From an uncultured Acidobacteriota bacterium (lineage in GTDB: Bacteria > Acidobacteriota > Thermoanaerobaculia > Multivoradales > SZUA-115): a stretch of 38,957 bases of DNA. Location of the stretch: assembly GCA_937867335.1 (NCBI GenBank), contig CALMKX010000254.1, positions 1-38,957 of the forward strand, in the 5' to 3' direction. Every line of letters starts with the position of its first letter. Position 1 is the stretch's first letter. Made by a program: the position numbers and the translations under genes. Shown piece by piece: positions 7,631 to 38,542 of this stretch. The notes under the pieces are model-generated. The model ran no database searches and was not told the DNA's origin. It was given only the letters and a program-made list of their open reading frames with translations.

Positions 7631-7659
7631 TTATCCAGTGCAGTCAGGAGGTGTATGAT
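7631..7659 (+). promoter_or_regulatory. Possible sigma70-type promoter for the beta-propeller gene
   Basis: TTATCC (7631-7636) and TATGAT (7654-7659) are separated by exactly 17 bases. The -10 box is close to consensus (5 of 6) while the -35 is poor (3 of 6). It sits in one of the few AT-richer stretches and 30 bases upstream of a well-spaced start codon. Confidence 0.4.
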
Positions 7660-7689
7660 GATCTAGGATTTTCGAAAGGAGGAAAAGAA

Positions 7690-9255
7690 ATGAGAGCATA
7701 TTATCCATCTTACATGTTGCATTACAGCTTCCTTGGGCTTGTGCTTGCCGCTTGGGTGCCCGCTGCGACAGCCCAGACCTCCTCGATCCCCGCCGTCGAT
7801 TCCCCCCCGATTCCCATCCACCAAGTCTTCGCCACACGCCACTATTCGAGCGACGCCTCGGCGACCTCGATGGTCGAGGCCCAGGGCGGCGCTTTCGGGG
7901 CCGTTCTCGAGGCGCGGATCGGGGGCCCCGGCGAGTGGGAGCTCAGCGCGCGCCGGAGCCCGAGCCTGTTGAGCGACGGCGCCGTCGCCTTCGCCGAGTT
8001 CCCGGGCTGGCCCAACGGCCAACCCGTGAGCTTCGCGCTGGAAGGCGGTGGCAGCGGAACCGTCACCCTCAGGCTGCAATACGCCAGCCTCTCCGGCTGG
8101 GTCGGCACGCTCCAGAATGTGACCTGGAACAACAACGAGATCCTGGTGCGGACCCGTTCAGAGGTGGCAGGTGCCGTGGCGCGGGTGGCCGACCTCGAGC
8201 TCGATGGGGCCGCTCTTCCCGAAGCCTCGGAGGTCGTAGGGGCCCCGGGCGGCGCAACGGACATCCTCCGCCTGGTGGGAGCCCAGCTCAACGAGGGCTT
8301 CTCGCTGCGCGGGACTATCACCTTGTCCTGGACGGGCAGCCGCCCCAGGGGTTCGCAGCTCGATGCCCAGTTCTGGGTCGCCCGGGTGATTCCGCGCGAA
8401 GTGCACGGGCTCCTATGGATGGCCGAAAGCGGAGGGCTCGCCCTGGCGCCCACGCCCGAAGGTCGCCATGGCTGCGACCTGCTCTGCGGGCAGAAGGCGA
8501 GCACCGTGGCGGTGGACTCGGATCGCCTCGTCGGCTGGGCGTTGGTGGGCTCGGAGCTGCGCCGCTACAACTTCTCCGGCGGCCTCGAGCTGGCCATCCC
8601 GATCGCCGCTCCAGAGACTTCGGCGCAGCTGGCGGTGCGGCCGGAAGACGGCTCGGTGTGGCTGGCGGTGGACACGCTGCTATCCAACTGGGGGCCAGGA
8701 GGACAGCGCCTGGCCGGCCAGACCCTGCCGGACTCGGTGCGCGAGCTCGAGGTGGTGGGTTCGGAGCTGTGGGTCGCCACCGCCAGCACGGTCGAGGTGC
8801 GCGACGCGGTGAGCGGCACCCTGCTGCGTCGCCTGGATCTCGAACCGGGCGTTGCGGTGTCGGATCTCGCAGTGGACCGCGAAAGCGGTTCGGTGTGGGC
8901 CGCGGTGTCCGGGCAGCTGCGGCGATACCGGGCGGATGGCGAACTCGAGCTGATCCGGCCCCTGGGCGGGCTTTCCCTGGTGGAGAGCGACGGCCACGGG
9001 GGCGTGTTCGCGGGGGTCGACAACAGTGTCATGAGGATCGACGACCTCGCCCGTGTGGTCACCACCACGGCGCTGCCGCCCGACGCAAATCCGATCCGAT
9101 TCCTGGTGGCGGACGCCACCAGCTCGGGAGTCTGGGTCGGGGGAGCGAGCGGCGCCCTAGAGATCCGCTCGGATGGCGCGCGCCGGACGTCGCTGTGGGT
9201 GGTGCCTCGAGAAGAGCTGAGCGACGGCGCTCTCTACGTGGCGCCGGCCCTCTGA
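7690..9255 (+). CDS. Exported beta-propeller-like protein of unknown function
   Basis: A 521-residue protein. I start it at 7690, where AAAGGAGG (7675-7682) sits seven bases upstream, rather than at the ATG at 7651. The signal peptide (SFLGLVLAAWVPAATAQ) ends near residue 29. Residues of about 60-240 are beta-rich without recognisable motifs. The C-terminal half shows recurring blade-like units with the pattern GSVWLAV, SELWVAT, GSVWAAV and SGVWVGG, each followed by a turn, as in SMP-30, NHL or WD-like propellers. It also resembles the propeller part of large YD/RHS shells, but no YD repeats follow and the frame ends cleanly. The first codons are AT-rich and the rest GC-rich. It is probably a periplasmic or surface binding protein; no function is assigned. 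Confidence 0.75.
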   Translation: MRAYYPSYMLHYSFLGLVLAAWVPAATAQTSSIPAVDSPPIPIHQVFATRHYSSDASATSMVEAQGGAFGAVLEARIGGPGEWELSARRSPSLLSDGAVAFAEFPGWPNGQPVSFALEGGGSGTVTLRLQYASLSGWVGTLQNVTWNNNEILVRTRSEVAGAVARVADLELDGAALPEASEVVGAPGGATDILRLVGAQLNEGFSLRGTITLSWTGSRPRGSQLDAQFWVARVIPREVHGLLWMAESGGLALAPTPEGRHGCDLLCGQKASTVAVDSDRLVGWALVGSELRRYNFSGGLELAIPIAAPETSAQLAVRPEDGSVWLAVDTLLSNWGPGGQRLAGQTLPDSVRELEVVGSELWVATASTVEVRDAVSGTLLRRLDLEPGVAVSDLAVDRESGSVWAAVSGQLRRYRADGELELIRPLGGLSLVESDGHGGVFAGVDNSVMRIDDLARVVTTTALPPDANPIRFLVADATSSGVWVGGASGALEIRSDGARRTSLWVVPREELSDGALYVAPAL

Positions 9256-9341: not shown

Positions 9342-9917
9342 TTAGCTCTTCCCCGCCGGAGGCGCGGGCAGCAGGCAGTGGGCCCCTTCGAGGAAGCCCT
9401 CGGCCTCGACTTCGAAGGCCCGGTTGAATCGAGCACGGTAGTTCTCCCAGGCGATCGCGGCCGTGAGCTCCACCAGACCCGCCTCGCCGAGCTCGGCCTC
9501 TAGGGCGGCGAAGAGCTCCTGGGGCACCTGGGCGGGAGTGGCCGTCAGGGCGTCGGCGTAGCGCAGCACCTGGCGCTCGAGCTCGGAAAAGGCCGTTGAG
9601 CTCTCGTACTGGGGTAGGGCCAGGAGCTTCTCCTCGGCGAGGCCGGAGGCTCTGCTCACGGCAGAGCCGATGTCCACTCAGAACGGGCAGCCGATCTTGC
9701 CGGCGGCGCGGATCTGCGCCAGCTGCTTGAGCCCGGCCGGCACCCGCCGAGCTTTCTCGAGGGCTAGCTCCATTTGGCCGTAGCCGTAGAGCACCGGCTG
9801 GGAGAGAGCGTGGATGCGCAGCGGCGCCACCACCTTGCCCACCCGCTTGCGGCTGAAGAAAAAGGCGATGCGGGTGACGATCGAGCCGCCGCGGGTGATG
9901 CCTGGGATTCGTGCCAT
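9342..9917 (-). CDS. AhpD-like (carboxymuconolactone decarboxylase family) protein, predicted selenoprotein with in-frame UGA
   Basis: One 191-residue protein is encoded if the UGA at 9680-9678 is read as selenocysteine 80. The N-terminal part ends in IRAAGKIGCPF and the frame continues with VDIGSAVSRASGLAEEKL. In AhpD-like proteins this is where the redox CxxC motif lies, so the motif here becomes Cys77-Pro-Phe-Sec80. A perfect 8-bp hairpin directly after the UGA fits a bacterial SECIS. The family reduces peroxides or disulfides through this motif. The start has AAGGAGGG at 9921-9928. The next gene upstream in the transcript encodes a LOG protein 24 bases away. Alternatives are a TGC-to-TGA mutation or sequencing error giving a pseudogene. 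Selenocysteine machinery (selA, selB, selC, selD) is not in this window. Confidence 0.78.
9648..9668 (-). promoter_or_regulatory. Predicted bacterial SECIS element
   Basis: Read on the minus strand, nine bases after the UGA, GGCTCTGC pairs perfectly with GCAGAGCC around the five-base loop CGTGA. The apical loop therefore starts 17 bases after the UGA and has G as its second base followed by U. Bacterial SECIS elements lie within the coding region just downstream of the UGA, with a guanine at the start of the apical loop, which SelB binds. The stem is exact despite lying in coding sequence. Confidence 0.72.
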
Positions 9918-9941
9918 CGACCCTCCTTCGCCAGCCAGGAT

Positions 9942-10520
9942 TCAGAGCCGGGAAAGCTCGACGGTGGTCCGCGCCACCTGGAAGCGGCGGGCGAGAGCAG
10001 CCAGCAGTGAAGCCGGATCGCTCGAGACCTCGAGCAGCGCGCGATGCTCGCTGCGCACGAAACCGGCGGCCACCGCCTGGTCCAGGAAGCCAAGCAGAGG
10101 CGCGAAGTAGCCGTTCACCTCGAGCAGGCCGCAGGGCTTGGAATGGAGACCGAGCTGGGCCCAGGTGAGAATCTCGAACAGCTCGTCCAGGGTGCCCAGG
10201 CCCCCCGGCAGCGCCAGGAAGCAATCCGCCAGCTCGGCCATCAAGGCCTTGCGCTCGTGCATCGAGCTCACCACGTGGAGCCGGCTCAGGCCGAGATGGG
10301 CTACCTCTCGGGCCCGCAGATGCTCGGGAATCACCCCCACCACTTCGCTGCCAGCGGCCAGGGCGGCGTCGGCCAGGATGCCCATCAGCCCGACGTTGCC
10401 GCCGCCGTAGACCAGCCCCAGCCCGTGCTCGCCGAGCAGCCGGCCGAAGCCGGCCGCCGCCTGGGCATAGCCAGGCTGGTTGCCGGCGCTCGAGCCACAG
10501 TAGACGCAGACCCAGTTCAT
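9942..10520 (-). CDS. LOG-family (TIGR00730-type) nucleotide phosphoribohydrolase-like protein
   Basis: A 192-residue Rossmann-fold protein of the LOG/YgdH group, at about the normal length. The N-terminus [10 protein letters not shown] is characteristic, as are [12 protein letters not shown] (36-47), the MHERKALM segment (88-95) and the catalytic PGGLGTLDE (105-113) with Glu113. Members release free base from nucleoside 5'-monophosphates, notably cytokinin ribotides, and were long misannotated as lysine decarboxylases because of this motif. In bacteria without plant association the substrate is usually unknown. It lies 24 bases upstream of the AhpD-like gene and 10 bases after the small membrane-protein gene, in a minus-strand series. 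Confidence 0.88.
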
Positions 10521-10530
10521 CGCACCTCGC

Positions 10531-10962
10531 TTACGGGATCTCGGGGGCGAACGAAGGAGCCGAGCCGGATGCCGGCTCGAACTGCAGGCGGACCCCCTCG
10601 CGCAGCAGGACGATCAAGGTGAACACCCCCAGGACGGTGCCGAACGGGGGGAACATGCAAGAGATGGCCGCGATCACCAGACAGAAAGTGTAGCGCCGGC
10701 GCCGGGCGAGGGAACGGCCGGCCAGGGCCAAGCAGCTGGCCAAGGAGAGACCGGCCAGGATGAGGAAGCTGGCGAAAGCCACCAGCAACCAGCCCACGAA
10801 GCGGGGCGGGCCGTCGCCGTGGGAGTCGGTGAAGACGCCGCTCAGCATGGCCACGCCGAAGCCGAGGTGGATCAGGGGAAACAGGGAGGCCAGCGCCGCC
10901 ATCGCGGCGACGACGTAGTGGAAAACGGACAGCAGACGCAGGAAATCGTCGTTCCGGTTCAT
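10531..10962 (-). CDS. Small four-helix membrane protein of unknown function
   Basis: A 143-residue protein with four predicted membrane helices, at about residues 12-42, 55-82, 92-110 and 112-127. An [11 protein letters not shown] basic loop suggests a cytoplasmic face between helices 2 and 3. The N-terminus [17 protein letters not shown] resembles uncharacterised small membrane proteins common in GC-rich Gram-negatives. An AGGAGG directly upstream, read on the minus strand, supports the ATG. I do not recognise a domain with function. It precedes the LOG gene by 10 bases on the same strand and is probably co-transcribed with it. Confidence 0.78.
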
Positions 10963-29706: not shown

Positions 29707-31356
29707 ATGAGCAGCATCCAGAGTGTGAGCCCGAAAGTGGTCCCTCAGAGCTCCGCCGGAGCCTTGAGCCAGCCCAAGGCCGGCGCCAAGGCCGCGGCGG
29801 ACCATTTCGAGAAAGCGGCGCCCGTACGGGGCTTTCTCCAGGCCGGGCTCGATCCCGTGCGGCAGGGCGTTTCCGGCCGCGATGTGGCGGCGGCTCTCGG
29901 CGTGAGCGAGGAGCGGCAGCGCGAAATCGACCAGCGGGTGCGAGAGGTCGAGGGCGGGCTCTACGGCGGCATGGTCTCGGTCGCCGAGACCACCGGCGAT
30001 CTGAACGACGCCGAGTACCAGTACTTCGTCTGGTCGCTCACGCAGGAGACCGCCGCGAGCGGCCAGTTCAACCAGGCGCTGCAGTACTTCGGCGGCGATC
30101 CCCGCTTCGGCACCGCTTTCAACCACGCCTACGAGCAGGGCTGGATCGACCGCTCCACGCTCTCGAACGCCCTCGACTGGCTCGCCAACACCTCCGATCC
30201 TCTGAACCAGGCGGCGGACCCCGGCGCGGTGCTCGGCATCCTGCTGCCGGCCGCCGGCGACGCTCTGAAGGCGGACCTCGCCACAGTGCTGGTCGATCAG
30301 CTGGCCCAGATGCCGCTGGGGGACGCCGCTTTCGACGGCTCGCGCACCAACTACGCCAACGCCCTGGCGGACCTCGCCTCGGCCAGCCCTGCCGCTACCT
30401 TGGCCGCGGCGAGAGAGCTGGTGCAGCAGCCCGGTGCCCAGGTCGCCCTGGTGGCCTTCGGCGACGCCGAGAAGGTGGCCGGCCTGGCGGAGGGAATCGC
30501 CGCCCTCGGGGGCGATCCCGCCTCTGCGCTGACTAGCTCGGAGGCGAGCAGCTTCCGCCGCCTGCGGGAGTTCCTCGAAGCCCGGGACGGCGGCGAGAGC
30601 CTGCGTAGCGAGATCGCGGCCCGCCGGGAGGCGATGGGCCCGGCCTGGAACGGAGCCGGGCTCGCGATGCCCGAAGACACCGGCGTCTACGACGCCACCT
30701 CCGCCCTGCCCACCCTGCTCAACCCCACCAACCGGGCCACCGTCGAGCGGCTGGCGGCGGAATACGGCATCGACCCGGCTCTGCTCGCCGGGGTGGTGGC
30801 CGCGGAGATGGACTTCGACCACAGCACCAAAGACGCCCTGCACGACGGCGTGGCCCGGAACTTCCCGTGGATCCTCGACCTGACCGGTCTCAGTCGCGGT
30901 GTGGGCATCGCCAGCGTGCACCAGAACCAGCTCTCGGACGCGATCGCCTACATCAACGCCCACCCGGACCACTTCAGCCCCGATGTGGTGGCAGCGGCCA
31001 ACGATTTCGACTCGTCCACCGGCAACCTGGCGAGCTTCGAGGGCTCGGTGGAGGCGGCGGCGATCGTCACGGCGGTGCTGGTGGACGTCAAGAGGCAGAA
31101 CGGCGGCACGGTCGATACGGCCCAGGACATGGCGGTGATCTGGGGGGCGTTCCGCAGCGGCATCGGCGGCTTCTCGAGCAACGAACAGGGCTCCGGAACA
31201 CTGGCGGTGGGGCAGGGGGGCTACGCCAACGTGGACGATTTCGCCCACAACCGGGCCAACGGCGCCGACGCCTTGCCTACCGAGATGCAGATCGGCGGCA
31301 ACGCCTATCAGTCCGAGCCCTACTTCGAGTACCTCCAGGGCGTTTTCGGGCCCTGA
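29707..31356 (+). CDS. Hypothetical protein with lysozyme/transglycosylase-like C-terminal segment
   Basis: A 549-residue protein without signal peptide or membrane helix. The first 40 residues are polar and low in complexity (SVSPKVVPQSSAGALSQPKA). Residues 60-320 are helical with no motif I recognise. From about 345, RLAAEYGIDPALLAGVVAAE with Glu367, then RGVGIASVHQNQLSDAI and a helical end, resemble the order of lytic transglycosylases (helix, catalytic Glu, GIGxxQ-like turn). The classical ESxFN after the glutamate is not conserved, so activity is uncertain. It has a GGGAGG ribosome site and a consensus promoter. A helical scaffold followed by a wall-cutting domain and no Sec signal would suit a cargo of a contact-dependent or phage-tail-like secretion system, which is speculation. 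Confidence 0.7.
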   Translation: MSSIQSVSPKVVPQSSAGALSQPKAGAKAAADHFEKAAPVRGFLQAGLDPVRQGVSGRDVAAALGVSEERQREIDQRVREVEGGLYGGMVSVAETTGDLNDAEYQYFVWSLTQETAASGQFNQALQYFGGDPRFGTAFNHAYEQGWIDRSTLSNALDWLANTSDPLNQAADPGAVLGILLPAAGDALKADLATVLVDQLAQMPLGDAAFDGSRTNYANALADLASASPAATLAAARELVQQPGAQVALVAFGDAEKVAGLAEGIAALGGDPASALTSSEASSFRRLREFLEARDGGESLRSEIAARREAMGPAWNGAGLAMPEDTGVYDATSALPTLLNPTNRATVERLAAEYGIDPALLAGVVAAEMDFDHSTKDALHDGVARNFPWILDLTGLSRGVGIASVHQNQLSDAIAYINAHPDHFSPDVVAAANDFDSSTGNLASFEGSVEAAAIVTAVLVDVKRQNGGTVDTAQDMAVIWGAFRSGIGGFSSNEQGSGTLAVGQGGYANVDDFAHNRANGADALPTEMQIGGNAYQSEPYFEYLQGVFGP

Positions 31357-37702: not shown

Positions 37703-38542
37703 ATGGCGACCCTCAACTCCCTGCTGCGGCAGCTCTTCGACCTGCTGCTCTCCCCCTTCGCCGGCCTGCCCTCGGTGGTGCCGGTCACCGCGATTTCGGT
37801 GGTGGTGGGGGTGGCGATGCTCTGGGTGTACAAGAAGACCTCCAACCAGCAGAAGATCGAGGACGTGAAGCAGCAGATCTTCGCCAGCGTCTTCGAGATC
37901 CGCCTGTTCAACGACAACCTGCCGGCGATCTTCCGCGCCCAGGGGGATATCTTCCGGCGCATCCCCCGCTACCTCTCGCTCTCCTTCGTGCCCCTGGCCT
38001 GGATGCTCCTGCCGATGGTGCTGCTGATCGCCCAGCTGCAGTTCCACTACGGCTACCAGGGCTTGCAGCCCGGGCAGCCGGTGCTGCTGAAGGCCACCCT
38101 GAAGCCCGGCGCGAGCCTGCCGCAGGACGCCGCCGGCGCTCTCGACGTGGCGCTCTCTGCGCCCGAAGGCCTGAAGGTGGAGGCCGGGCCGGTGTGGGTG
38201 CCTGCGCTGCGCGAAGTGAGCTGGCGCCTGGCCGCCGAGCGCCCGGGCTCCTACCAGCTCACCCTCAAGGCCGGCAGCGAGAGCCTCACCAAGACCGCCG
38301 TCTCCTCCGAGAAGAACCTGCGCCGCTCGCCGATCCGAGTGGGCGGCGCCTTGCTCGACCAGCTGCTCTACCCGGCGGAGGACCCCATCCCCACCACCAG
38401 CCCCTTCGCCGAGGTGAAGCTGGACTACCCCGAAGCCGAAGTGAACCTGCTCGGCTGGCACACCCACTGGCTGATCGCCTTCTTCGTCCTCTCCCTGGTG
38501 GCCGCCTTCGCGCTCAAGGGCTGGATGGGCGTGGAGCTGTAG
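37703..38542 (+). CDS. Membrane protein with coiled-coil and periplasmic domain, distantly Oxa1/EMC3-like in layout
   Basis: A 279-residue protein. Membrane helices are predicted at about 25-43, 94-113 and 252-275. Between the first two is a charged helical hairpin (KKTSNQQKIEDVKQQIFASV). A beta-rich domain of about 130 residues lies between the second and third, probably on the outer side (KAGSESLTKTAVSSEKNL). The helix, cytoplasmic coiled hairpin, helix order resembles the Oxa1/TMCO1/EMC3 membrane-insertase group, but I see no sequence signature, so the similarity is only architectural. It follows the ribbon-helix-helix-like gene by six bases and ends the operon. It may form a complex with the phosphodiesterases (inference). 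Confidence 0.75.
   Translation: MATLNSLLRQLFDLLLSPFAGLPSVVPVTAISVVVGVAMLWVYKKTSNQQKIEDVKQQIFASVFEIRLFNDNLPAIFRAQGDIFRRIPRYLSLSFVPLAWMLLPMVLLIAQLQFHYGYQGLQPGQPVLLKATLKPGASLPQDAAGALDVALSAPEGLKVEAGPVWVPALREVSWRLAAERPGSYQLTLKAGSESLTKTAVSSEKNLRRSPIRVGGALLDQLLYPAEDPIPTTSPFAEVKLDYPEAEVNLLGWHTHWLIAFFVLSLVAAFALKGWMGVEL

Follow-up and report, generated by a model that had tools for sequence, protein, structure and literature searches.

A CMD/AhpD-like gene with an in-frame UGA and a conserved SECIS-like hairpin as a predicted selenoprotein gene of an uncultured Acidobacteriota bacterium

Results

Gene anatomy and genomic neighbourhood

We analysed a 38,957-nucleotide stretch of contig CALMKX010000254.1 (hereafter, the window). 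On its minus strand, positions 9342..9917 hold a CMD/AhpD-like selenoprotein gene of 191 codons, Sec80 included. The frame begins with ATG at 9917, comprises 79 codons in all up to a TGA (9680-9678), continues for 111 codons and closes with TAA at 9344-9342. The read-through product, a CMD/AhpD-like protein of 191 aa, carries the motif Cys77-Pro-Phe-Sec80, in which Sec80 corresponds to the UGA at 9678..9680 and the first Cys of this CxxU motif to the codon at 9687..9689, both on the minus strand. The ATG is preceded by a strong Shine-Dalgarno (upstream letters GAAGGAGGGTCG; Shine-Dalgarno GAAGGAGGG, within GAAGGAGGGT at 9922..9931, minus strand), and none was found before GTG 9677, which mechanical gene calling takes as a start. 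GC3 is 0.88 and 0.87 in the two halves, i.e. the coding GC pattern is the same on either side of the TGA.

A scan of the whole window for TGAs with coding-like flanks on both sides in one frame returned two, that at 9680-9678 and that at 9944. The latter is the real stop of the upstream LOG/lysine-decarboxylase-like gene (PF03641; 9942..10520, minus strand), which shares the frame of the Sec gene and genuinely ends about 24 bp before it. TGA closes 16 of the 28 coding-like ORFs of the window and is thus an ordinary stop in this organism. The scan and the translation bear out the original prediction of an AhpD-like frame broken only by the TGA at 9680-9678, within the redox motif. Four other coding-like ORFs of the window (7651-9255, 10531-10962, 29707-31356 and 37703-38542) had no Pfam match at E 0.001.

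The neighbours of the Sec gene are the LOG-like gene and a sulfatase. Neither is conserved beside the genes of the relatives, and we therefore rejected them as a clue to function. Seven other loci (L113, L114, L117, L118, L121, L123 and L126, Cys and Sec members, two of them Sec) adjoin a C-terminally extended sigma-factor-like gene, for which Pfam sigma-70 domains were confirmed at one locus. These loci recall the reported linkage of CxxC CMD proteins to ECF41 sigma factors, for which a role in oxidative stress has been proposed (PMC3426412). No sigma-factor-like gene lies near the window gene.

A hairpin downstream of the UGA

Inside the coding sequence, 9 nt past the UGA, the RNA can form the bacterial SECIS-like hairpin GGCUCUGC-CGUGA-GCAGAGCC (9648..9668, minus strand). 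An 8 bp stem, the 5-nt loop CGUGA, the 9-nt spacer and 17 nt from UGA to loop reproduce the geometry originally claimed, and the MFE of the region is -15.5 kcal/mol. In the published bacterial SECIS model, 4-16 bp of stem carry a loop of 3-9 nt with G among its first two positions, UGA and loop are 16-37 nt apart and the MFE is <= -7.5 kcal/mol (PMC13188914); the window hairpin lies within all of these limits, its G being at loop position 2. A perfect stem of at least 8 bp obeying the SECIS geometric rules arises by chance at 0.33% of the coding codons of the window and at about 1% of its TGAs, and the folding energy z of -1.2 is unremarkable alone, so that the hairpin taken by itself is suggestive, weak and not conclusive. 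At gathering and E-value thresholds, Rfam gave no SECIS family match here, the hits being chance microRNA-type matches. The case is settled by the conservation of the hairpin in relatives.

Distribution of Sec and Cys among relatives

Homologues were gathered from whole genomes and from a genome-contig collection; the scan of the latter returned nothing with a single protein query and 80 loci with alignment A1 as the query. In the window clade (clade A), UGA stands at the exact codon in 39 distinct sequences, namely the window and 38 relatives, and nine homologues assigned to this clade by best match carry a Cys codon at the Sec column. One of these nine, L079, is highly divergent, and the tree places it outside clade A. 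Cys77 is invariant in alignment A2 and in all 49 clade rows. Relatives at 57-60% identity have the same TGA. Record titles of the clade A UGA sequences name Acidobacteria, Planctomycetota, Deltaproteobacteria/Myxococcales, Neomarinimicrobiota, Sumerlaeota, Verrucomicrobia and a proteobacterium. A sister clade (clade B) holds UGA in 39 further distinct sequences. The anticipated alignment of the UGA with Sec or Cys in homologues is thereby confirmed. In the tree, whose support is SH-aLRT only, the 39 Sec and 8 Cys rows of clade A are intermingled, a pattern suggestive of Sec/Cys exchange on more than one occasion.

A third, more distant AhpD-like group (L038, L040, L041, L072 and L074-L078) has Sec members of its own, of the CEYU...H type. 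It keeps the Glu/His relay, and the hairpin after its UGA, seen in L038, L040 and L041, differs. Two of the gathered loci, L095 and L096, are identical in sequence around the Sec site while their records are titled Acidobacteria and Verrucomicrobia; one of the two MAGs may be contaminated or mislabelled. Locus L166 (1560-1820; about 4560-4820 of contig C547 in genome G046) is a remnant of a clade A gene, in which an N-terminal part (51% identical) and a C-terminal part (59%) are joined directly, the intervening active-site segment and its Sec codon being absent. Its frame runs on into unrelated sequence to give 669 aa with a FadL-like domain downstream, and it could be either a fusion gene in decay or an assembly chimera.

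Conservation of the hairpin

Core pairing and compensatory changes are seen across the 78 Sec rows of clades A and B. The six apical stem pairs are formed in 39, 39, 39, 37, 38 and 34 of the 39 clade A sequences, at stem pair 5 clade A mostly has U-A or U-G and clade B G-C, and L115 keeps the stem with altered letters (UCGGC/GCCGA). Of the 78 rows, 77 have G at the second loop position and 73 have U at the third. Within the clade A hairpin, Ser is encoded by TCT in 36/39 sequences and Arg by AGA or AGG in 35/39; in the codon usage of the window, TCT makes up 2.5% of Ser codons, AGA 0.5% and AGA plus AGG 3.2% of Arg codons. Among the Cys homologues, a common hairpin at the corresponding place was not found. 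On sequence grounds, the conserved hairpin and its rare codons are a mark of RNA-level selection, for which the protein sequence alone is no explanation. Hence, the element predicted to be a SECIS both agrees with the published model and is conserved and covarying among relatives.

Selenocysteine machinery

The assembly is 97% complete at 5.56 Mb and fragmented into 391 contigs. It contains selA (522.6 bits), selD (256.6 bits) and a tRNA-Sec (selC; 69.1 bits with the Rfam model), whose loop CUUCAAA gives the anticodon UCA; ARAGORN missed this tRNA. The selD gene is fused, within a single long open frame, to an N-terminal pyridine-nucleotide-oxidoreductase-like domain (L165; contig C2 of genome G000). 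No intact selB was seen. Its N-half (287.9 bits; L012:386-1447) is on contig C71 and its C-half (40.6 bits; L163:1-930) at the start of contig C299, both at contig ends, and near its contig end the N-half runs into unrelated Flp-pilin-like sequence of opposite strand. The split is most simply an assembly break, and the junction of the N-half is probably a misassembly. Of the four sel genes sought in the same genome, selA, selC and selD are accordingly intact and selB is present in two pieces. Among 12 other checked genomes with a Sec gene of either clade, selA was detected in 11; G194, a genome with the Sec gene, gave no selA match. This co-occurrence does not discriminate, given how common selA also is among relatives that lack the Sec gene.

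Family, fold and active site

The protein scores 24.6 bits against PF02627 (CMD), above the Pfam gathering cut-off of 23, and 20.4 bits against NCBIfam TIGR01926 (peroxidase-related), below its cut-off of 81.8. NCBIfam NF053654 matches residues 1-173 with 107.6 bits, below the cut-off of 310; the Sec members of clade A, the window included, score 107-129 bits, and L026 of the sister clade 324. The AlphaFold model (mean pLDDT 92.9) is an all-helical AhpD-like fold with CxxU. In Foldseek, the top match is the debrominase Bmp8 (6ohj/6ohi; E 7.5e-07) and the best solved matches are all AhpD/CMD-like, with TM 0.89 (target-normalised) for 2o4d, 0.82-0.85 for 6k40 and 0.77-0.80 for Bmp8.

In M. tuberculosis AhpD, the proton relay consists of Glu118, Cys130, His132, Cys133 and His137 (PMC3141380). 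Of these, the two Cys alone have counterparts in the window protein, namely Cys77 and Sec80. The relay Glu (Cys-12) is replaced by Gln65, at a position that varies in the clade, and the relay His (four residues after the second Cys/Sec) by Gly84. This Sec+4 residue is Gly in 35 and His in one of 40 clade A Sec rows; the sister clade has Asn there in each of its 39 Sec rows. The designation AhpD-like in the original prediction thus holds for the CMD/AhpD-like superfamily (PF02627); with two relay residues missing, to call the protein an AhpD enzyme is overstated. A further residue, Glu158, is shared by every clade A row and every clade B Sec row, and no other group has it. Most loci came from the contig-collection scan, whose pattern contained this Glu, and the search itself thus accounts in part for the invariance; Glu158 also occurs in members found without that pattern, both in clade A (the window, L024, L061, L063 and L064) and in the sister clade (L025-L027, L056, L058, L059 and L062).

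Discussion

Based on the above data, this locus is almost certainly a single gene for an AhpD-like selenoprotein of the CMD superfamily, in which UGA is decoded as Sec80 by means of a hairpin within the coding sequence. Other readings of the same DNA have to be weighed against this. Superfamily Cys homologues mostly have Cys at the Sec column, and a single base change would turn TGC or TGT into TGA, which could make the gene a pseudogene or the TGA a sequencing or assembly error. The same TGA, however, recurs in unrelated assemblies from several phyla, in 38 further distinct sequences of the clade. This recurrence rules out the error and refutes this reading; moreover, the coding signature is intact on either side, and the hairpin that is conserved after the UGA is missing there in Cys homologues. 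We attach next to no weight to it. Nor is there any realistic prospect that the TGA is a true stop separating two short genes, of 79-aa and 111-aa products, with re-initiation at GTG 9677. Mechanical ORF calling does list two, and a GTG does directly follow the TGA, but that GTG lacks the strong Shine-Dalgarno of the ATG, and the split would cut through the redox motif of a single domain that relatives with a Cys codon encode without a stop. Decoding of the UGA as another residue, through a variant code or a suppressor tRNA, would draw on nothing further than the in-frame UGA itself; given that TGA terminates 16/28 coding-like ORFs, the upstream gene included, that tRNA-Sec and selA/selD are in the genome and that the site aligns with Cys, we consider it wildly improbable. 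The homologues, the conservation of the hairpin and the sel genes thus support the original view that the two apparent short genes are one selenoprotein with Cys-Pro-Phe-Sec.

An alternative that concerns function only, and is compatible with Sec insertion, is a genuine selenoprotein carrying out non-peroxidase thiol/selenol chemistry on the same fold, such as reductive dehalogenation of the Bmp8 type or disulfide reduction. The debrominase Bmp8 is the top Foldseek match, and in nearly all members the relay His has become Gly or Asn and the Glu is not conserved. On the other hand, 2o4d and 6k40, AhpD-like proteins for which no debrominase role is described, are roughly as good matches, PA0269 is ahead of Bmp8 by sequence, and identity to Bmp8 is only ~20%; we regard this alternative as unlikely. 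In the absence of the relay Glu and His, peroxidase activity by the AhpD mechanism is itself uncertain. We also considered that Sec renders the relay dispensable. This idea is weakened by the Cys members of the clade, which are also without the relay, and by the Sec group L038/L040/L041, which retains it; relay loss is therefore not tied to Sec alone. Very tentatively, the family could be an uncurated and widespread CMD-fold Sec clade that has lost the AhpD relay, with Glu158 of the last helix, which relay-bearing relatives lack, substituting for it and an altered chemistry, for example dehalogenation or disulfide reduction.

For the selenoprotein reading, the demonstrated elements (layout of the gene, conservation of the UGA, conservation and covariation of the hairpin, sel genes and the predicted fold) lead us to infer Sec insertion, the catalytic order and the substrate as follows. 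The ribosome would start at ATG 9917, and the hairpin 9 nt past the UGA (9680-9678), within the coding sequence, would act as the bacterial SECIS. SelB would deliver Sec-tRNA(UCA), so that Sec80 is inserted in place of termination, and the protein would fold as an all-helical AhpD-like domain with Cys77-x-x-Sec80. Sec80, at the second position of the motif, most likely attacks a peroxide or disulfide as the oxidised substrate, and the selenenyl-sulfide would then be resolved by Cys77. The enzyme may accordingly be a peroxidase or a disulfide reductase.

Automatic annotation would split such a gene or drop it. In NCBIfam 20.0, no curated selenoprotein model claims the window protein, and the clade extends across MAGs from Acidobacteriota, Planctomycetota, Myxococcota and a number of further phyla. 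The annotation would be mended by a profile made from the clade. Its Sec and Cys homologues without the AhpD relay also form a set for testing the benefit of Sec.

Comparison with known systems

The Sargasso Sea survey of 2005 already reported AhpD-like CxxU selenoproteins (PMC1088965), and a 2026 review lists AhpD-/CMD-like selenoproteins of the TIGR01926, NF041238, NF041047 and PF02627 types (PMC13188914). As in these, Sec takes the place of the second Cys of CxxC in the window protein, which is a further case of this known class. Of the types in the review, the window protein passes only the PF02627 cut-off, and its clade may correspond to that type. Among curated families, NF053654 (GroundWater_YciW, 'YciW-related (seleno)protein') is similar in having Sec at the same column, a hairpin at the same position and the AWEN motif. 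It differs in its motif, mostly GC(E/V/P)FU-QDINAAV in the NF053654 sister clade vs GCPFU-(I/V)DIGSAV in the window clade. Since the scores are far below the cut-off, NF053654 does not cover the window clade, which, from the sequence comparison, is its sister outside that curated model.

The classical AhpD-like protein PA0269 (PDB 2o4d) has the all-helical fold and the position of the CxxC in common with the window protein, whereas the latter has Sec for Cys, does not conserve the relay Glu and His, and carries Glu158 instead of Ile. M. tuberculosis AhpD is a poor match (E 0.57). Bmp8 (PDB 6ohi/6ohj) provides the best fold match but is only ~20% identical, and dehalogenation is not implied by this likeness.
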